Below are positions 136-30,493 of a DNA stretch of 30,493 bases, in pieces (position 1 is the stretch's first letter; every line of letters starts with the position of its first letter). This DNA is from a virus: positions 1-30,493 of IMG/VR virus record IMGVR_UViG_3300031622_000010. One strand, written 5' to 3'. The position numbers and the translations under genes are program-made. Under the pieces are notes generated by a model that worked only from the letters and a program-made list of their open reading frames with translations, ran no database searches and was not told where the DNA came from.

Positions 136-729
136 ATGCCGTTAAATATAATACAAAGTGGGTCAGGCTCACCATTCATTCGGTTTTCGATTGAAGAAAA
201 TACTTGGTCAATATCAAGTGAAGGTGGGGATTTGCAGCCAGTAAATATGTCTGATCTACCCGTTGTCTTCGATGTTTCAAACGTCCAGATGGGTTGGTTG
301 AAGCTTGCTGGTGGACGCGATTGGGCGCCGTGGCCCAATAACGAACCTTCGCAGCTAGCTCGTCCATCAGATGCTCACTCCCAAGGTTTTAGCATAAAGC
401 TTTTTTCCAGCAAACTGTTCGGAGATGAACCAGTGCGTGAACTATGCACATCGCAGATCGGCATGATGGACTTCATTAAAAACTTGTATGATGAATGCGA
501 ACGTTCGCCAGAATTTAAAACAAAGGTTCCGGCTATAGTGCTTGGCGATGCCCCAAAAAGAAAACTTGGGCGCGGTTCAACAAGAACACCATCCTTCACA
601 ATAAAAGCGTGGGTAAAGCGCCCAACGGAATTGGCAGAAGAGGGTAGTCCTGTCCCTTCTTCGCCAGCAGCGGTTGGTGACTCCCAGCCAGCCGCGAAAT
701 CAGATGACGATATTTCCTTCGAAATCTGA
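136..729 (+). CDS. Hypothetical replication-module protein, possible ssDNA-binding protein
   Basis: A 197-aa protein with a strong ribosome site (AAGGAG, 8 bases before the ATG). I do not recognise a named family from the sequence. The N-terminal two thirds are mixed and probably beta-rich (for example FIRFSIEENTWSISSE). A basic stretch follows around residues 139-162 (KRKLGRG, FTIKAWVKRP). The last 35 residues are a low-complexity Pro/Ser/Ala linker ending SDDDISFEI. An OB-type body, a flexible linker and an acidic-aromatic tip is the usual build of single-stranded DNA-binding proteins, whose tip is typically DDDIPF, and the gene sits directly before the primase-helicase. The SSB-like role is inference from tail and context. 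It is followed at once by a strong terminator. Confidence 0.75.
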   Translation: MPLNIIQSGSGSPFIRFSIEENTWSISSEGGDLQPVNMSDLPVVFDVSNVQMGWLKLAGGRDWAPWPNNEPSQLARPSDAHSQGFSIKLFSSKLFGDEPVRELCTSQIGMMDFIKNLYDECERSPEFKTKVPAIVLGDAPKRKLGRGSTRTPSFTIKAWVKRPTELAEEGSPVPSSPAAVGDSQPAAKSDDDISFEI

Positions 730-780: not shown

Positions 781-2919
781 ATGACAAAAACAAAAATAGA
801 ATGGGCAAATTATTGGTACGACCTCGGCTTTAGTGTTGTTCCAGTGCATTACAACCTTCCGAGCGGCGGTTGCAGCTGCCATCAGGGAATGGATTGCCCG
901 TCGCCTGGTAAGCACCCTGCCCCAAAAAGTTGGCAGAAATTTCAAAACAATCGTGCAGATAAAGAGACACTAGAATTTTGGTTTGGAGGCCGGTTTGCAG
1001 AATTTAACATGGGCGTTGTCACTGGCTCAATATCCGGCAACGTATTTGCCGTAGATGTGGACATAGGCGAAGGCAAAGAGGGTGAAGACAGTTTGCACGA
1101 TCTGCAAATGCAGAACGACGATCTCCCCGAAACTTTGGCTCAAGTCACCGGCAGCGGTGGCAAACATTACTTCTTTCGAGCCCCGAAAGACGAAAAAATT
1201 ATTACTGGCAAGAACACATTAGGTCCGGCGCTCGATACGCGCGGCGAAGGTGGATTTGTTGTTGTTGCTCCATCGAACCATAAGAGCGGTGGAAACTACC
1301 ATTTAAACGGCGCAGCCGACTTCGACATCGAAGCCTCACCGTCTTGGCTCACAGCAATGAGTTTGCAAGAAAACTTCCATTTTTCCGAAACATCCGCAAT
1401 GCAGCAGACCGCTACAAACAAGTGGGGTGATCTGGTTGATGGACGCGAGGGGTACATGGTTCAGCTTATCATGGGTACACTAAGGACTTGGTGGGCGGAA
1501 AAGGGCATACTTCCAACGATTGAAGAACTGATCGAAGACGCTTGGCCTGTGTATGATTTAAAAGCTTCTGCGCGCGGTTTAACTCTCGATGATGACAACC
1601 GTGGTCGCAAATTATTTGAACAACGCGCGCAATATCAGTTAAAGAGAGCGGAACGTGGTCAGCTTAGAATCATAAATGAGGTTCAAGGCGGCTCAGAATC
1701 ACCAGCAGAAGGGTTTGCTCCAAAAATCCCATCTGTAGCGGTGAGCGAAGGGGACAGTTTGCCGACCGCGCCCCTTCGCATTCTCGATTGGGGCGTTGAT
1801 CGGTACGCCGGAACAGCGCCAGAGCAAGAATGGCTCATAGAAAACGTACTGCCCAAGCGAATACCTGGACTAATTGCTGCAATAGGAGGGCTGGGTAAGT
1901 CGTTCATCTTGCTCGATCTATGCCTCAAGGTAGCTGGTGGAGATCAAGCACTGCATCAAGAGAGCGCGCTGGGCGGTAAAATCGTCCATAACGGCAAAGT
2001 CGTTTTTTTGGGGGCAGAAGACAGTGCCGACAGCATCCATAGACGCATAGAAAGCATTGCCGGTCCCAACCTGATGCAGCGCGCAGCCGGAAACCTGTTT
2101 GTAGTCCCTTTGCCCGATGCCGGCGGCCCTGTTCCACTGATCCAGAACGTCATGGGTCAATACGCAATCACGCCCCAATATTTAGAACTGCGTCGGCAGC
2201 TGCAAGAAATGGGTGACATTGCTTTGGTTGTGATAGATCCGCTGCAAGCATTTGCCCATGCAGACATCAACACTGATCCAGCAGCCGGACAGTTTTGGTG
2301 GACAGTGATGGCAGAGCTTTGCGTATCAGTGAATGCAAACGTCATTATCGCCCACCACATGCGAAAAGAAGGCACGTTTGCAATTAAAAAGTCCTCGCAA
2401 GCGCGGGAGGCGATACGCGGCACAACAGCTTTGGTTGACGGAGCGCGCTGGGTCTACAGCCTGTGGGCCATGCCAGAGCAAGACGAAATCATTATTGCGC
2501 AAAAAATGAGCTTCGAAAGTGGCGTGGGTAACTGCGTTATGGGTGGTGTCGTCAAGATCAACGACAAAGCAGACAAAGGAACGCGCACCTACGTTCGAGC
2601 CGAAGATGGACTTCTGATCGATAAAACTAGCGAAGTATCGCAAATACTGGACGCCTCTCTAAAGCTAACAAGAATGCAAACTGACGCCATATTCCACGAA
2701 ATCAACACGCGATGGCACAGCGAAGAGCCGTTTTCGATGGCCGTAAACACTGGCAGATCAATACAGAAATACATTTCAGCTGAATATGCCATGCCGAAAC
2801 ACGCAGCAAAATTCCATGTCGAAGCATGGGTCGAGCAGAAAATGCTGGAAAACGCAATTCACAACAAAGTCACGAAAGCAAAGGGCATCAAGGTTTTAAG
2901 AAATATGGGGGACAGCTGA
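781..2919 (+). CDS. Fused prim-pol primase and RepA-type hexameric helicase
   Basis: A 712-aa protein that should prime and unwind DNA at the phage fork. Residues 8-190 match the bifunctional prim-pol domain. They show the Cys/His-containing insert (CSCHQGMDCPSPGKHP, 31-46), the catalytic acidic motif in FAVDVDIGEG (89-98), a GSGGKHYF motif (124-131) and the TRGEGGFVVVAPSNH stretch (153-167). The second half is a RecA-fold ATPase of the RepA/AAA_25 type, with Walker A GGLGKS (369-374, Lys373) and Walker B LVVIDPL (Asp486), then a C-terminal tail after about residue 630. Fusions of this sort are common in phages and plasmids. The ribosome site is weak (AAGGGG). No DNA polymerase gene is present in the window, so one lies elsewhere or the host enzyme is used. 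Confidence 0.93.
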   Translation: MTKTKIEWANYWYDLGFSVVPVHYNLPSGGCSCHQGMDCPSPGKHPAPKSWQKFQNNRADKETLEFWFGGRFAEFNMGVVTGSISGNVFAVDVDIGEGKEGEDSLHDLQMQNDDLPETLAQVTGSGGKHYFFRAPKDEKIITGKNTLGPALDTRGEGGFVVVAPSNHKSGGNYHLNGAADFDIEASPSWLTAMSLQENFHFSETSAMQQTATNKWGDLVDGREGYMVQLIMGTLRTWWAEKGILPTIEELIEDAWPVYDLKASARGLTLDDDNRGRKLFEQRAQYQLKRAERGQLRIINEVQGGSESPAEGFAPKIPSVAVSEGDSLPTAPLRILDWGVDRYAGTAPEQEWLIENVLPKRIPGLIAAIGGLGKSFILLDLCLKVAGGDQALHQESALGGKIVHNGKVVFLGAEDSADSIHRRIESIAGPNLMQRAAGNLFVVPLPDAGGPVPLIQNVMGQYAITPQYLELRRQLQEMGDIALVVIDPLQAFAHADINTDPAAGQFWWTVMAELCVSVNANVIIAHHMRKEGTFAIKKSSQAREAIRGTTALVDGARWVYSLWAMPEQDEIIIAQKMSFESGVGNCVMGGVVKINDKADKGTRTYVRAEDGLLIDKTSEVSQILDASLKLTRMQTDAIFHEINTRWHSEEPFSMAVNTGRSIQKYISAEYAMPKHAAKFHVEAWVEQKMLENAIHNKVTKAKGIKVLRNMGDS

Positions 2920-3083
2920 TGAAACAAGATAATGCAAAACTGTACGTCACCGGAATAATTCGAGCAGCTAATATAATAAAGACGGACGCAAAGCAGAAAC
3001 ACGAAAATTACTCTCTCGCGCAACAAGCCGAAAACATCAAAGCGATGGCTGAAAATCTCAAGCGCTTGCTCGATGAAATGTAA
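2919..3083 (+). CDS. Small helical protein, unknown
   Basis: A 54-aa protein whose ATG overlaps the primase stop (TGATG at 2917-2921), implying translational coupling; GGGGGA lies just upstream. A longer in-frame start at 2826 exists inside the primase gene but has no ribosome site. The sequence is charged and mostly helical (KQKHENYSLAQQAENIKAMA, then LKRLLDEM), suggesting a short coiled coil. I do not recognise a family. Its place suggests an accessory replication factor, which is inference only. Confidence 0.65.
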   Translation: MKQDNAKLYVTGIIRAANIIKTDAKQKHENYSLAQQAENIKAMAENLKRLLDEM

Positions 3084-3279
3084 ATTGTGCGATGGAAGCG
3101 GAGAAGCTTATTACGAAAAGCCAGTGGTTGATTACCAGAACGGCGGCTTCTTGGACACTGTTCTGATGGAATGCGACGACTGCGGCGGATCAGGCGAAGT
3201 GGAAGACGAGGATGAAGATGACTACGGTGATTGGCTGTACGAACGGTGGAAGGATAAAAAGCATGAAGACGATGGATAG
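3073..3279 (+). CDS. Small DnaJ-type zinc-finger protein
   Basis: A 68-aa protein with two Cys-x-x-Cys-x-Gly-x-Gly motifs: CKLCDGSG near the N-terminus and CDDCGGSG at about residues 35-42. This is the signature of the DnaJ central zinc domain, reduced here to one zinc site (two knuckles). It is followed by a very acidic tail (EVEDEDEDDYGD). It overlaps the previous gene by 11 bases in another frame. Free-standing zinc knuckles like this are frequent small phage proteins with no settled function; protein binding or host-factor recruitment is possible. Confidence 0.75.
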   Translation: MKCKLCDGSGEAYYEKPVVDYQNGGFLDTVLMECDDCGGSGEVEDEDEDDYGDWLYERWKDKKHEDDG

Positions 3280-3463
3280 CCTTTCAAATTGCCCGAACTG
3301 CAATCACAAGCTCGTAACGTGGGACAGCAGACCGCACACCAATTACGGCTACGCAACTATCAAGCGCAAACGAAAATGCGTGTACTGCGATCACCGCGTT
3401 GTTACAGTCGAAATCCCCATCGAACTCGGCAACTCGATATTTACGGAGGATTATGATGAATAA
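3263..3463 (+). CDS. Lone NrdR-like zinc-ribbon protein
   Basis: A 66-aa protein. I chose the ATG at 3263 because AAGGA sits 9 bases upstream; an in-frame start at 3212 lies deep in the previous gene and lacks a site. It holds CPNC and CVYC knuckles separated by about 28 residues, with DSR after the first and RKRKC before the second, then HRVVTVEI. This order (CPxC..DSR..RKRxCxxC..RxxTxE) matches the N-terminal zinc ribbon of NrdR, the repressor of ribonucleotide reductase genes. The ATP-cone domain of NrdR is absent. Phage Ogr/Delta-type activators have a related layout, so a transcription role is plausible but unproven. Confidence 0.75.
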   Translation: MKTMDSLSNCPNCNHKLVTWDSRPHTNYGYATIKRKRKCVYCDHRVVTVEIPIELGNSIFTEDYDE

Positions 3464-3734
3464 GCTGTGCCAAAACTACGGAAATGGGCGCACTTCCCCC
3501 CCTAAAACTACGGAAGTGACGCGGGGTCGCTACCCCAAAACAACGGAAGTAAGCACTTTTGTTACGGAAGTAAGCTATTGTTTTACGGAAGTGACGCGGG
3601 GTCGCTACCCCAAAACAACGGAAGTAATTTACGGAAGTAAACCCCCATACCCCTTACACACTACTTCCGTAAAAACGGATTGTAGATGTGATGCTGTATG
3701 GGAACTGTGCGCGGGAGAAATGAAAAATGGCTAG
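3456..3734 (+). CDS. Possible 92-aa protein overlapping an iteron array
   Basis: A GGAGGA site at 3445-3450 precedes ATGATG at 3453-3458; the second ATG has better spacing and the frame overlaps the previous stop. The product is low-complexity, with TEVTRGRYPKTTEV present twice and further TEV units, because the frame runs through the DNA repeats listed separately. It ends with three cysteines and overlaps the next gene by 8 bases. The repeats occur in two frames and also inverted, so they look selected as DNA, not as protein. The reading frame could be a leader whose translation matters, or may not be a real gene. Confidence 0.35.
   Translation: MNKLCQNYGNGRTSPPKTTEVTRGRYPKTTEVSTFVTEVSYCFTEVTRGRYPKTTEVIYGSKPPYPLHTTSVKTDCRCDAVWELCAGEMKNG
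3509..3552. repeat. 44-bp direct repeat, copy A
   Basis: An exact 44-base unit that recurs at 3584-3627, giving a 75-bp period. Each copy starts and ends with an ACGGAAGT iteron and contains the inverted repeat GGGGT-CGCT-ACCCC (3523-3536 here), which can form a 5-bp GC-rich stem with a four-base loop in DNA or RNA. Confidence 0.9.
3584..3627. repeat. 44-bp direct repeat, copy B
   Basis: Exact second copy of the unit at 3509-3552, with its hairpin at 3598-3611. No base differs between copies, which suggests recent duplication or strong selection on the DNA. Confidence 0.9.
3628..3673. repeat. 12-bp perfect inverted repeat closing the iteron array
   Basis: TTTACGGAAGTA at 3628-3639 is the exact reverse complement of TACTTCCGTAAA at 3662-3673, with a 22-base, C-rich spacer between them. 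Each arm contains one iteron, so the pair may be both a protein site and a cruciform or RNA hairpin. Confidence 0.8.
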
Positions 3735-4335
3735 CTCAAGATATGCAAAGGTAAAACGTAAACCGAAACACAAAACAGCTGATGACAGTTGGACCGCGCC
3801 AGCGATGTTTAGTGACCACAGATTAGATACTTGCAACTCTGCAATTAATAGCGTCGATCAGGTCGCAAGAAAACTCGAACAGCTGTGGGGCATAGGAAGG
3901 CTGGAACGCCTCGCATCGCCAAAGCTAGCAGTACAGTTTGAACAAGCCAGACAAAACTTTAACGCAGCCGCCAACGGTGACGACAGTAACTACCTAGCCG
4001 ATAAAGCAGCCAACCTAATCACAGGATGGAAAGCGCTCGAACAGTCAGCGGTCAAAAATGGAAACAAACCAGATGATCCTAAAGTGTGGCACTTCATTGG
4101 TCCAGATGATCTGGGAAACAAAAAGTATGCCATCGTAGATCATTCCAGCGAAGTAAACGATACAATCTATAAAAGTGCGGATTGCGTCTACTCACTCGAT
4201 GAAGTGGCAAGAATTATAGCTGAATGGGAAAAAACGCACCTTGGTGACATGGCTGCAAAAGTCAAAGAGTTGTTCCCAAAATCTAAAATTACAAGAATTA
4301 AAGATGGAGACTTCATCGATGAAATACCCTTCTAA
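3727..4335 (+). CDS. Unknown protein with an SSB-like acidic C-terminal tip
   Basis: A 202-aa protein with GGGAGA before its ATG, overlapping the previous frame. The first 20 residues are basic (KVKRKPKHK). The middle is helical and charged, with WGIGRLERLASPKLAVQFEQ. A compact segment follows at about 121-170 (VWHFIGPDDLGNKKYAIV). The C-terminus ends GDFIDEIPF, close to the DDDIPF tip with which bacterial SSB recruits repair and replication proteins. I do not recognise a family for the body. Its place after the primase and iteron array supports a replication or recombination role. The tip is seen directly; the interaction is inference. Confidence 0.8.
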   Translation: MASSRYAKVKRKPKHKTADDSWTAPAMFSDHRLDTCNSAINSVDQVARKLEQLWGIGRLERLASPKLAVQFEQARQNFNAAANGDDSNYLADKAANLITGWKALEQSAVKNGNKPDDPKVWHFIGPDDLGNKKYAIVDHSSEVNDTIYKSADCVYSLDEVARIIAEWEKTHLGDMAAKVKELFPKSKITRIKDGDFIDEIPF

Positions 4336-4681
4336 CGATAAACCAAAGATGGAGACTGCAACTAGCATGACCCCCAGAAGAACGCTTCTCCTGGAAGCCG
4401 CAGAAATTGTCGAAAATGTTAGAAATTTGGAATATGGGGAACCATCAGAAAACATGACGCGCACGGCTGCCCTCATGTCTGCGTATTTCGGAACACGTAC
4501 TGGATCAAGCTTCTCCGCACATGACGTTGCAGTGTTCGGGATTATTCTAAAGCTTGGACGCATTGCAAACGATCCAACAAAACGTGACAATTGGTTAGAC
4601 GTTTGCGGGTATGCCTCGATCGGTTACGAGTGCATTGAAAAAGGCGGCACTTTCGCACCGCCTTCTAAAAGTCAGACCTAA
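4319..4681 (+). CDS. DUF6378-like phage protein
   Basis: A 120-aa protein. I chose the ATG at 4319, which has GGAG 11 bases upstream and overlaps the end of the previous gene; an upstream in-frame start at 4241 lacks a ribosome site. The pattern LLLEAAEIV...LEYGEPSENMTRTAALMSAYFG...SAHDVAVFGIILKLGRIAND....DNWLDVCGYASIGYE matches the phage family DUF6378, whose helical fold suggests a relation to MazG-like nucleotide pyrophosphatases. The activity is not established, and I would not assign catalysis. Its last codons contain the hairpin that terminates the opposing operon. Confidence 0.8.
   Translation: MKYPSNDKPKMETATSMTPRRTLLLEAAEIVENVRNLEYGEPSENMTRTAALMSAYFGTRTGSSFSAHDVAVFGIILKLGRIANDPTKRDNWLDVCGYASIGYECIEKGGTFAPPSKSQT
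4638..4662 (-). terminator. Terminator of the minus-strand operon, inside the converging gene
   Basis: Read on the minus strand, GGCGG...CCGCC arms (4643-4647 and 4658-4662) extend through two wobble pairs and one GC pair to a GAAA tetraloop, and TTTTT follows directly (4642-4638). This is a good rho-independent terminator for the operon ending at 4690. On the plus strand the same hairpin is followed by TTCTAAAA and would be weaker. It lies within the coding end of the DUF6378-like gene. Confidence 0.75.
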
Positions 4682-5794: not shown

Positions 5795-6150
5795 TATTGC
5801 CAATCGCCCTCAATATAGAGCCTCTGGTTGTTTTCCTTGTAGCTCGAAGCGTGGTAAGCTTTTGCGACATAATGAGTGGCGTTTATGCCTTCGTCGTCCG
5901 TGAACATCTCATCAAGATATTTTGCGTTTATATCTATGATTGGACGCGCAGCGCTCCCCGAAATCTTGCGCTTGCCGTTCTCTTTGAAATCAAGGCGCAG
6001 CCCATATTCTGAAATGAAAACAATATTGAAACGCATCCCAGCTGAAAGGCCAGCACGCAAAAGAAACTTGCCTTCCATCCAGATACGAAAATTGCCACGG
6101 TGTCGCCCAAGCTTAAAAGTCTTTTTGGTTCTTATCGATAAACGGCTCAT
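5794..6150 (-). CDS. SymE-like small protein next to the methyltransferase
   Basis: A 118-aa protein starting at the ATG at 6150, with AGGAGGG well placed and a four-base ATGA overlap with the methyltransferase stop. The segment FRIWMEGKFLLRAGLSAGMRFNIVF resembles the swapped-hairpin (SymE/AbrB) pattern of W-[LE]-x-G-x-x-[LF]-x-x-A-G-[FL]-x-x-G. It is followed by GLRLDF, RKISGS and PIIDIN. From memory, similar sequences occur fused to or beside phage cytosine methyltransferases, which would make this a DNA-recognition partner. The pattern is seen; the partnership is inference. A stand-alone SymE-type toxin is the alternative. Confidence 0.7.
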   Translation of the reverse strand: MSRLSIRTKKTFKLGRHRGNFRIWMEGKFLLRAGLSAGMRFNIVFISEYGLRLDFKENGKRKISGSAARPIIDINAKYLDEMFTDDEGINATHYVAKAYHASSYKENNQRLYIEGDWQ

Positions 6151-6899
6151 GCTCTGGCCCTCCTTTCTTGCACTGCCCAGCTGCCCCACTGGTCAGCAAT
6201 CGCGTCAGCAATACCTCCATAAAACTTGCTCCGTTTTTTCCAACGGTCAGCGCTGGGCGCCATGTTGTGGCACTCTGCCCGTGCTGTCGAACCATCGAGC
6301 GTTCCAGTGGGCTTGAGCTTTGGCAAATTGCGCAGCCAAAAGCATGTGCGCTTTTTGACGTTATCAGCGCCAGCATCATTGCGCCCGAACTGCCAAGGCT
6401 GGACGGACTGCGAGAATTGCTTAAAATTTCTAATGCGTTCTTTTGCGTGGCGGTGGATCACTGGGTTCTCGATAGCGAGGCACGGAACGTCAGCGTTCCA
6501 CAGATCAGAAAACAACGCGCAGCCCTCGTCCAGTTCGCTCCACATCTGTTCTAATGTTTTGTTGGGTGGTGCTTTATGCAGCCACCTGACGCCAGAGTTG
6601 CACAATCTGGTGCAAGGTGGGTGGGCGATCATAACAAGGTCAAAGGTTTCCCGCGCTAGAACATTGCGCACATCATCTTGCATGTGCCGATTGGTCTGGG
6701 TGTCTGCTGGCAAAACATCACAAGACCAAGCGTCAAACCCAGCCCTCTCGAACGCGCTGCGTACAATGCCGGAAGTCTCACAACCTACCAAAACCTTGGT
6801 TGCGGCGTTTGCCTCAAGGATTAACTGTTCGAGGTCGGTCTGGCGCTCCCCAACTTGGGAAGCGCTGCCGTTATTAAACATATCTAATTGGTCGAGCAT
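6147..6899 (-). CDS. C5-cytosine DNA methyltransferase-like protein
   Basis: A 250-aa protein, starting at the ATG at 6899 that overlaps the previous stop (TGATG). After about 34 residues it shows the S-adenosylmethionine motif VLVGCETSGIVRSAFERAGF, then an acidic strand end (CDVLP). The catalytic loop is HPPCTRLCNSG (motif IV, nucleophilic Cys in PPC), and an AIENPVIHRHA segment stands where classical enzymes have ENV. It is shorter than typical C5 enzymes (over 300 aa) and belongs to a divergent phage group. No restriction nuclease lies nearby, so the likely role is protecting phage DNA from host enzymes. The target sequence cannot be read from the protein. Confidence 0.85.
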   Translation of the reverse strand: MLDQLDMFNNGSASQVGERQTDLEQLILEANAATKVLVGCETSGIVRSAFERAGFDAWSCDVLPADTQTNRHMQDDVRNVLARETFDLVMIAHPPCTRLCNSGVRWLHKAPPNKTLEQMWSELDEGCALFSDLWNADVPCLAIENPVIHRHAKERIRNFKQFSQSVQPWQFGRNDAGADNVKKRTCFWLRNLPKLKPTGTLDGSTARAECHNMAPSADRWKKRSKFYGGIADAIADQWGSWAVQERRARA

Positions 6900-7207
6900 C
6901 ACATCACCGCCAATTCTAAAGCGTGGGATTGAATGCGCTCGATGCTGTCCCAGCTTCGAACGTCACTGCGTGTGCAGCTTCTCTCGGTAATGTTCCATTC
7001 AATATCGCGGATCTTGGATGCGTTGTGCAATTTGTAGGCATCGCAATCCTCTTCAAGTGCAAATACGCGCTTACCATCAATTACACTGGTATAGCTGAAA
7101 TGGCTAAAGTCTTCAGCTGTAAGGCCAGTTAGTTTAACTGAGCTTTCGGATACAACTAACCAACCGTGGCCAGCGTCACTTTCGTGCAATATATTTATAG
7201 TGTTCAT
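6899..7207 (-). CDS. Unknown protein with a DAGHGWL motif, first gene of minus operon
   Basis: A 102-aa protein with GGAG seven bases before its ATG. Its N-terminal part contains ESDAGHGWLVVSESSVKLTGL, a motif that I recall from many uncharacterised phage and plasmid proteins (xDPGHGWLxV). The middle has SVIDGKRVFALEEDCDAYKL. No catalytic function is known to me. As the first gene after the divergent promoter it should be made early with the methyltransferase behind it. Confidence 0.75.
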   Translation of the reverse strand: MNTINILHESDAGHGWLVVSESSVKLTGLTAEDFSHFSYTSVIDGKRVFALEEDCDAYKLHNASKIRDIEWNITERSCTRSDVRSWDSIERIQSHALELAVM

Positions 7208-28627: not shown

Positions 28628-30493
28628 ATGGGTTTTGATAGATTTGGGTTTCCGACTACGGACACAAAAGACGCAACAATTAAACCAGAACTAAATTTAG
28701 AGCCAAAACCGTCTGGCGCTTTAGACAGGTTCGGGTTCCCAATTGATTCACCGTCTGGCGCTTTAGACAGGTTCGGGTTCCCAATCGATCCACTGGCGGG
28801 CGTAACTCCTATTTTGCCTGCGCCCTCTGGCAAAAGCTCGTCGGTGGAACTTACAGAGGAAGGTATAACCCCTGCGTCTCTAGCAGTCGCAGCGCAGCCT
28901 GTTCGCTTGCCAGGAGAGAACCCGCAAGAGTTTATGATTAGAACTGGTAATCGAGTTGAAAGCAATCCAGACCTAGTACTGCCGAGTGTGTTTAATCAAG
29001 TAGAGCCGGAGCCAGCGCCTTTAACTAAGTTTGAAATAGAGAAGCAGAGGCTAACCGATCTCTTTAAACAACCTGGACCTCTGCAAGCGAAGGTCGATGC
29101 CAACTTAAATAAAGGGTTTTCTAATGTTTCGGGCGTTCCTGGTAATTATTATCTTCGCTTACCAATAGGCGTTACACCGATCAGCGATGAAGATGCGACT
29201 ACTTTTTTGGCTCAATCCAATACCTTTGAGGCAACGAACAATGCACTTATGCGCGGATATGGTAGGCTTTTAGGTGTGACGAACGTCATTACTAAAGAGC
29301 TTGGGTTGCAAGACCCGCAGTCTTTTATAGAAAATATGCAAGAATTAGACAGAGTGTTTCCTGACGCACCACCCGAAGTCAACGATGCGTTAAGAGAGAT
29401 ACAAGAAGCCGAAGGCGTTTATAACGTAACCAAAGCAATTCTTGATAACCCTGGCGCTGTTTTGAGCGTAGTAGGTGAGTCTTTACCGACTTCCCTGCCC
29501 ACTATTGCAGCTGCTTTTTTAGGACCATTTGCGCCAGCTGGGGCTTTTGCAACGTCTTGGGCAACTGAATACGCAGTCGTCATAGATGAAGAAATTAAGT
29601 CTATGGGTATCGATCTCCAAGACGATGCCGCAATGCTGGAACTTTTGTCTGATACCGCTTTCTGGGAGAAAGCCAGAAGCCGTGCAAAAACTCGTGCTGG
29701 TCCGATTGCTGTATTCGATGCACTTTCTATGGGCATTGCTGGCAAGTTGCTTAGCAAGGTGGTTGCCAGAGGGGGCAGTAGAGCGGCAGTTGGGGGAGCA
29801 TTAGGAGCAGAAGTTCTAACGCAAGGCGCTTTTGGTGGAGCCGGTGAAGCAGCGGCGCAACGCTTTGAAATGTATAGGGGTATGAAGGACAAATTCGTTC
29901 TTGGTGATGTTGCTCTTGAAACTGTAGGGGAGTTTGTTCCTGGCGCTGGGGAAATTGCAGTTAAAGCAAAACCTTCAATAAACGCCGCACTTGAAAACCA
30001 ATTCCAGCAAGCGCTTGATGCAGCGGAAATCGAAGCGAACCAAAAAAGCGCGATGCAGGGCGCTATCGATCTTCTAAATCCCAATTCAGCTGCATACCAA
30101 CCGCAAGGTGAATTAACTGCAACAAGGGCTGATATTATATCTGAAGCATCCCGCCTTGCTGATAGGATGGAAGCAGCTGGGGCGGAAGGTCAGAATTTTG
30201 CTAAAGGTCTTCGCATAAGGATTAATAATCTGCCGAATGACAAAGAGCTTACGGATCAGGACTTGGACTTTTATAGGGACATAGTATCTGATCTAGAGGC
30301 CACGCCATCCGAAATAGCCGAGCAGACAAAAATTTTGCAGAGGTTTTTTGAAACAAAGAAAGGCCCTTCAAACACTCAAGCAAAGTACGAAAAAGTTATA
30401 AGTGAAGGGTCTTATGCACCCGTTATCCAACAAGCAGAAGCCCGTTTGAACGAACTCGCCAACCAGCTGCGGGAGTTGGGTTTCGATTTTACA
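28628..30493 (+). CDS. Large internal virion/ejection protein, gp16-like position (partial)
   Basis: An open frame of 622 codons from the ATG at 28628 (GGAG upstream) to the window end, with no stop, so the gene continues. The N-terminus carries three DRFGFP motifs. A Pro-rich linker follows, then a folded part (KQRLTDLFKQPGPLQAKVDA). A hydrophobic region (about 276-310: VLSVVGESLPTSLPTIAAAF, then LGPFAPAGAFA) and a Gly/Ala-rich stretch (AVGGALGAEVLTQGAFGGAG, near 387) precede a helical end. Such long proteins with membrane-active segments are the ejected gp16-type proteins of podoviruses. No lytic transglycosylase motif is seen in the visible part. Confidence 0.75.
   Translation, partial: MGFDRFGFPTTDTKDATIKPELNLEPKPSGALDRFGFPIDSPSGALDRFGFPIDPLAGVTPILPAPSGKSSSVELTEEGITPASLAVAAQPVRLPGENPQEFMIRTGNRVESNPDLVLPSVFNQVEPEPAPLTKFEIEKQRLTDLFKQPGPLQAKVDANLNKGFSNVSGVPGNYYLRLPIGVTPISDEDATTFLAQSNTFEATNNALMRGYGRLLGVTNVITKELGLQDPQSFIENMQELDRVFPDAPPEVNDALREIQEAEGVYNVTKAILDNPGAVLSVVGESLPTSLPTIAAAFLGPFAPAGAFATSWATEYAVVIDEEIKSMGIDLQDDAAMLELLSDTAFWEKARSRAKTRAGPIAVFDALSMGIAGKLLSKVVARGGSRAAVGGALGAEVLTQGAFGGAGEAAAQRFEMYRGMKDKFVLGDVALETVGEFVPGAGEIAVKAKPSINAALENQFQQALDAAEIEANQKSAMQGAIDLLNPNSAAYQPQGELTATRADIISEASRLADRMEAAGAEGQNFAKGLRIRINNLPNDKELTDQDLDFYRDIVSDLEATPSEIAEQTKILQRFFETKKGPSNTQAKYEKVISEGSYAPVIQQAEARLNELANQLRELGFDFT
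28709..28785 (+). repeat. Tandem 42-base repeat at the start of the ejection protein
   Basis: A 35-base unit at 28709-28743 is repeated exactly at 28751-28785 (42-base period; the flanks differ by single bases). It encodes PSGALDRFGFPID twice, and a diverged third motif (FDRFGFP) lies at the protein start near 28635-28655. Confidence 0.9.

Follow-up and report, generated by a model that had tools for sequence, protein, structure and literature searches.

The stretch of DNA analysed here, referred to as the window, comprises 30,493 nucleotides of an IMG/VR virus record and carries near its left end a gene cassette with an array of short repeats (Table 1). The array lies between the gene for a fused primase-helicase, which we call P, and the gene for a protein that we call X; a probable single-stranded DNA-binding protein is encoded in the same cassette.

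Table 1. Features of the cassette and its repeat array, with positions in the window
Feature	Position	Strand	Remarks
Probable ssDNA-binding protein	136..729	+	same cassette; synteny with genes annotated as ssDNA-binding protein in roseophages
P	781..2919	+	Prim-Pol primase (aa 14-189) fused to an RSF1010 RepA-type helicase (aa 330-531), followed by the C-terminal domain
P C-terminal domain, predicted winged helix, proposed iteron binder	2614..2916	+	aa 612-712
Wing tip HNKVTKAKG	2860..2886	+	aa 694-702; V697 proposed reader of the unit's first base
Variant iteron ACGGAAAT	3478..3485	+	one-base variant of ACGGAAGT
44-bp duplicated segment, copy 1	3509..3552	+	two iterons with GGGGTCGCTACCCC between them
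Iteron ACGGAAGT	3510..3517	+	exact copy
Iteron ACGGAAGT	3543..3550	+	exact copy
Iteron ACGGAAGT	3564..3571	+	exact copy
44-bp duplicated segment, copy 2	3584..3627	+	perfect match to copy 1
Iteron ACGGAAGT	3585..3592	+	exact copy
Iteron ACGGAAGT	3618..3625	+	exact copy
Iteron ACGGAAGT, terminal inverted module, half 1	3631..3638	+	exact copy
C-rich core CCCCCATACCCC between two inverted iterons	3642..3653	+	CCCC-N1-3-TA pattern in 54/55 measurable arrays
Inverted iteron, terminal module, half 2	3663..3670	-	31 bp centre to centre
X	3727..4335	+	uncharacterised, 202 aa; ends in the SSB-like tip DEIPF; follows the array in every case

Proteins of the cassette

P matches the Pfam families PF09250 (Prim-Pol) and PF13481 (AAA_25). 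Its helicase region matches RepA of plasmid RSF1010 (1g8y) both by sequence (E 8.7e-13) and by fold (E 1e-13), and its primase region matches the prim-pol of pRN1 ORF904 (1rni) by fold. In the structure model of P (mean pLDDT 76), the C-terminus contains helices at residues 616-627, 631-645, 661-668 and 673-685, followed by strands at 689-695 and 700-705. This predicted secondary structure suggests a winged-helix fold, in which residue 697 would occupy the tip of the wing; sequence-profile searches with the C-terminal domain returned no confident match.

X was found downstream of P in every locus that is long enough, and searches of Pfam and PHROG with it gave no match. Nearly all aligned X proteins finish in a D-x-x-[IL]-P-F tip, and the DEIPF end of the window protein resembles the acidic tip of bacterial SSB. 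The N-terminal part of the X structure model is helical. Fold searches returned weak helical-bundle matches only, the DnaK lid among them and none above Z 7.8; we treated these as uninformative. The candidate ssDNA-binding protein likewise has no match in Pfam or PHROG. In the family of the window the tip DEIPF is found on X (4270-4335 in the window) and the SSB-like protein ends in DDDISFEI (700-729), while in roseophages the arrangement is reversed, with an SSB tail of DDALPF or DDDIPW and an X without the tip (L117, L118, L119 and L120); the SSB-like tip seems to sit on either X or SSB.

Elsewhere in the window, a DUF6378 protein is encoded at 4319-4681 (+), and a DUF6378-type gene follows X in relatives too. 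A DNA methyltransferase family protein lies at 6147-6902 (-; phrog_757, E 1e-53), and the large protein at the window end opens with (A)LDRFGFPID peptide repeats (28628-28800).

The repeat array of the window

The initial annotation had described eight occurrences of an 8-bp unit, or of a one-base variant of it, in fewer than 200 bases at close to whole helical turns, one of them inverted and with no exact copy elsewhere. These observations were reproduced. ACGGAAGT occurs as seven exact copies (six forward, one inverted on the minus strand) together with one variant between 3478 and 3670, and the start-to-start steps are 32, 33, 21, 21, 33, 13 and 32 bp, so that six of the seven are 21, 32 or 33 bp. 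A search of the whole window found zero exact copies outside the array; matches with one mismatch number 24 in the whole window against 19.5 expected, which is not significant. The clustering, in contrast, is significant: when the whole window was simulated 100 times with a first-order Markov model, three was the highest count of any one 8-mer within 200 bp, as compared with the seven observed. The 44-bp duplication supplies part of this density, so the copies in the window are not all independent, a concern that is removed by the arrays found in relatives.

The array neighbours the primase-helicase in a loose sense only, since it starts 558 bp past the P stop codon and ends 57 bp ahead of X, and the gap holds small open reading frames (ORFs). 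Two of these ORFs are zinc-ribbon-like (3073-3463): the one at 3212-3463 has an NrdR-like N-terminal domain (E 4e-8) and the one at 3073-3279 a weak DnaJ zinc-domain match; comparable small ORFs were seen by eye in some relatives (L003-L005), not in all. In a 60-bp GC profile no A+T-rich stretch, such as an iteron origin would use for unwinding, is marked in or beside the array, the lowest GC content being 37% (3720-3779). The window strand folds better than shuffled sequences (z -3.6), with pairing that comes largely from the repeats and the inverted iterons, and an Rfam search of the array returned no family, leaving an RNA element unsupported. A comparison of array DNA with phage records found no similarity.

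Arrays in IMG/VR relatives

Scans of IMG/VR for relatives yielded 67 non-redundant loci. An array lies between P and X in 56 non-redundant relatives of P, and the order P, array, X is kept in every relative with a complete region, at a distance from P of roughly 100 to 1,800 bp. The initial annotation would have been contradicted by relatives that share the primase and lack a cluster; the relatives do carry one, though often of another unit, and so did not refute it. The unit varies by lineage: ACGGAAGT is shared by the window and L045, GCGGAAGT is found in most arrays, GCGAAAGT is the unit of one large clade and of L094, and some arrays mix units. The dominant unit is missing from the remainder of nearly every locus.

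Site spacing is phased across the family. In 189 same-strand steps from 32 distinct architectures, the steps group at 10/11, 20-22, 31-33 and 43 bp, with a period of 10.5-11 bp (R=0.86 near 10.75 bp) and R=0.24 at a period of 3; some of these steps are common to related arrays, so that the effective number is below 189. When sites were jittered by up to 5 bp, the observed R was reached in 0 of 2000 draws. A C-rich inverted module with half-sites 31-33 bp apart terminates 52 of the 55 measurable arrays, that is, those in which a plus/minus pair of sites could be measured, and its core is typically CCCC-N-TACCCC. A scan with a 22-base pattern of this terminal module retrieved 22 contigs, all of which carry X, and P wherever the contig reaches that far.

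Four loci (L042, L089, L044 and L095) have compact tandems of about 11 bp, of CCGG or GCGG type, with units that were read by eye. In this clade, with arrays at 3721-4153 in L044 and 2634-3066 in L095, the P proteins are 89-96% identical and the units differ. L044 and L095 have outer GCGGGAGT sites in common, and the clade looks like a case of recent unit switching in progress.

By eye, ORFs that resemble a tyrosine-type integrase precede the cassette in some relatives, on the minus strand of L003 (410-1477) and at the 5' end of L005; part of the group may therefore be temperate. A scan of a genome collection for P gave distant matches to the N-terminal third only, mostly in Actinomycetota, and identified no prophage host.

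Co-variation of the unit with residue 697 of P

Each column of the P and X alignments of the IMG/VR set was compared with base 1 of the unit. Among 775 columns of P and 275 of X, P697 is the only one that separates A, C and G units: V or A accompanies A-units, T accompanies C-units, and K, R, H or Q accompanies G-units. These classes were drawn up after inspection of the first set of genomes, and in the final run mixed-array genomes (several with S at 697) and incomplete genomes were set aside. P697 was already the sole separator in the first set, and this was unchanged after later loci were added. Two loci outside the first set agree, L168 with K and a G unit and L191 with A and a unit that mostly starts with A, while L192, with S and a mixed array, is in line with the tendency of the earlier S genomes; no genome looked at once the rule had been set contradicts it. 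The nearest relatives of the window (P 72-73% identical) have Q at 697 and a G unit. Q was a new residue placed in the G class afterwards; the case fits the contrast with V of the window and is not a prediction.

Two near-minimal contrasts illustrate the association. Between L044 and L095 the domain differs by T697R and one other residue, and the unit changes from CCGG to GCGG; between the window and L147 the wing differs by V697Q, and ACGG becomes GCGG. On a tree of P from which the C-terminal domain had been left out, all three independent base-1 switch pairs of the first set are concordant, too few for significance in a sign test. A second assignment, in which residue 699 would read base 3 (K with G, N or H with A), fitted the first set but was dropped because it failed on L168, which has K699 and the unit GCGAAAGT.

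Cultured roseophages

The same cassette is present in five cultured Roseobacter phages (PMC12629253), a paper in which the words "iteron" and "primase" are absent and the lone "origin" concerns gene ancestry. Phages of the CRP-822 type share with the window the series of nuclease, SSB, P, array, X and a DUF6378-like gene, but their P and X are only about 24-26% identical to those of the window, and their arrays have other units and the core ACCCTTTAGGGT. In CRP-811, CRP-821, CRP-823 and CRP-831 the gap between P and X holds such arrays, with GTATAAA-like units in CRP-821 and CRP-831, ACTACAAA-like units in CRP-811 and CRP-823, and the ACCCTTTAGGGT core common to all four. In the protein alignment, most positions that track the unit lie in the part of P that is C-terminal to the helicase, and the N-terminal part of P from CRP-821 groups with that of CRP-823. 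X and SSB differ little, X being 87-96% identical across the two unit types. Profile scans with roseophage P and X added one further genome only, L122, which has a ACTACAAA array and a matching P C-terminus.

The array as a candidate replication origin

Several short, helix-phased direct repeats near a candidate initiator gene are what an iteron origin is recognised by, and this arrangement is found here. The array is most likely the site at which replication starts. The proposal of an initiator-bound phage origin, made from the window sequence alone, is still the best reading in view of the conserved position, the phasing and a candidate binder in the C-terminus of P, which tracks the unit, unlike X, and so suggests that P reads the iterons with its own C-terminal domain. 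We consider it probable that replication in this marine phage family originates at the array and that P binds there through its winged-helix-like domain, residue 697 reading base 1. The cumulative GC skew that had been suggested as a check is uninformative because it follows gene strand, in the window as in the complete CRP-823 genome, and so lends support to neither side.

From these features we infer the following sequence of events. One P domain would occupy each 8-bp iteron, all sites facing the same side of the helix, and residue 697 at the tip of the wing would read base 1 of the unit. P molecules bound to the array and to its terminal inverted module could then assemble into helicase rings. 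The DNA would open near the conserved C-rich core and be primed by the Prim-Pol domain of P, after which the phage SSB, X and the host polymerase may take over, and the SSB-like tail of X could recruit host replication proteins.

The same arrangement might instead be an operator or enhancer for X and later genes, with P as an autoregulator that does not bind an origin. The last site lies 25-97 bp ahead of the X start codon in 50 of the 56 arrays; however, the distance is 180-220 bp in the other six, and the L048 group has a small ORF (seen by eye) between the array and X. Moreover, 8 to 13 phased sites over about 200 bp exceed the usual needs of an operator, a search of 2850-3850 gave no sigma-70-like promoter (phage promoters may differ), and it is a replicative primase-helicase whose sequence follows the unit. 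We regard this explanation, the main rival, as unlikely.

Slightly less likely still is an origin at which X acts as a RepC-like, sequence-specific initiator and P is only the helicase-primase that is loaded. X is always present and adjacent, and RSF1010 pairs a separate RepC with its RepA helicase (PMC4234260). Against this, zero of the 275 X columns separate the three unit classes, and roseophage X shows few residues that track the unit, unlike the C-terminus of P. Nor does X have a recognisable DNA-binding fold, although a fold may be missed. With no column following the three classes, X was rejected as the binder that determines the unit. That the repeats are a functionless by-product of tandem duplication or a coding repeat, as the 44-bp duplication and a 111-codon open frame running through the array might suggest, is highly improbable, since sites with unrelated sequence between them change in concert, both the position and the terminal module persist where P is only 48-73% identical, and a spacing period of 10.75 bp and not 3 speaks against the coding version.

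Comparison with known systems

Searches of the open-licence literature found no described origin of this kind, and several known systems share parts of it. SaPI Rep uses its C-terminal domain to recognise short iterons that lie immediately after its own gene, as stated in PMC7581432, where the same is shown in vitro for SCCmec Cch2. The proposed recognition of iterons by the C-terminus of P, at an array downstream of its own gene, resembles both. However, those proteins are D5/DUF927-type initiator helicases, whereas P joins a RepA-type hexameric helicase to a Prim-Pol; no D5 or DUF927-type helicase domain was found in P, which matches AAA_25 and RSF1010 RepA instead. The array also differs in lying about 100 to 1,800 bp from the gene and in ending with a C-rich inverted module.

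The α protein of P4 combines primase, helicase and origin binding in one polypeptide that acts on a repeat-bearing ori, and its primase is of the Toprim type (PMC4234260). P resembles α as a single polypeptide with repeats at its candidate origin, where its binding is proposed only, and differs in that its primase is an archaeo-eukaryotic Prim-Pol and its helicase is of the RepA type. The helicase of α is of the SF3 type.

RSF1010 divides these functions among three separate polypeptides, RepA, RepB' and RepC, of which RepC recognises the origin oriV (PMC4234260). P has a helicase domain homologous to RepA in both sequence and fold, but its primase and helicase are fused and the proposed iteron reader is its own C-terminus. 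ORF904 of pRN1 has a Prim-Pol, a helicase and a C-terminal winged helix, with a putative origin downstream that contains a stem-loop instead of iterons, and its helicase is of the SF3 type (PMC4234260). P shares this domain order, including the predicted winged helix, and the Prim-Pol folds match; the window differs in having iterons and a RepA-type helicase. On our best reading of these analogies, the mode of action would be closest to that of SaPI Rep/Cch2 and P4 α, with RSF1010 providing the helicase type and pRN1 the primase type.

Implications

Few replication origins are known for uncultured marine phages, and the array offers a candidate for a group represented by dozens of contigs and by cultured roseophages. 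Its position is conserved across dozens of marine phages despite the changing repeat. The analysis also names a likely binder and provides near-minimal pairs at residue 697 (V/Q and T/R), which would show the specificity of an initiator shifting while all sites of its origin must follow. Iteron recognition would thereby be placed on a RepA-type helicase fused to a Prim-Pol, a task for which RSF1010 itself uses a separate protein. It is possible, though we advance it only tentatively, that origin and initiator wing have changed together repeatedly in a wide range of marine phages, with one wing residue setting one iteron base as a natural specificity code. If so, close phage relatives would possess mutually unrecognisable origins, and their replication would be incompatible in co-infection.
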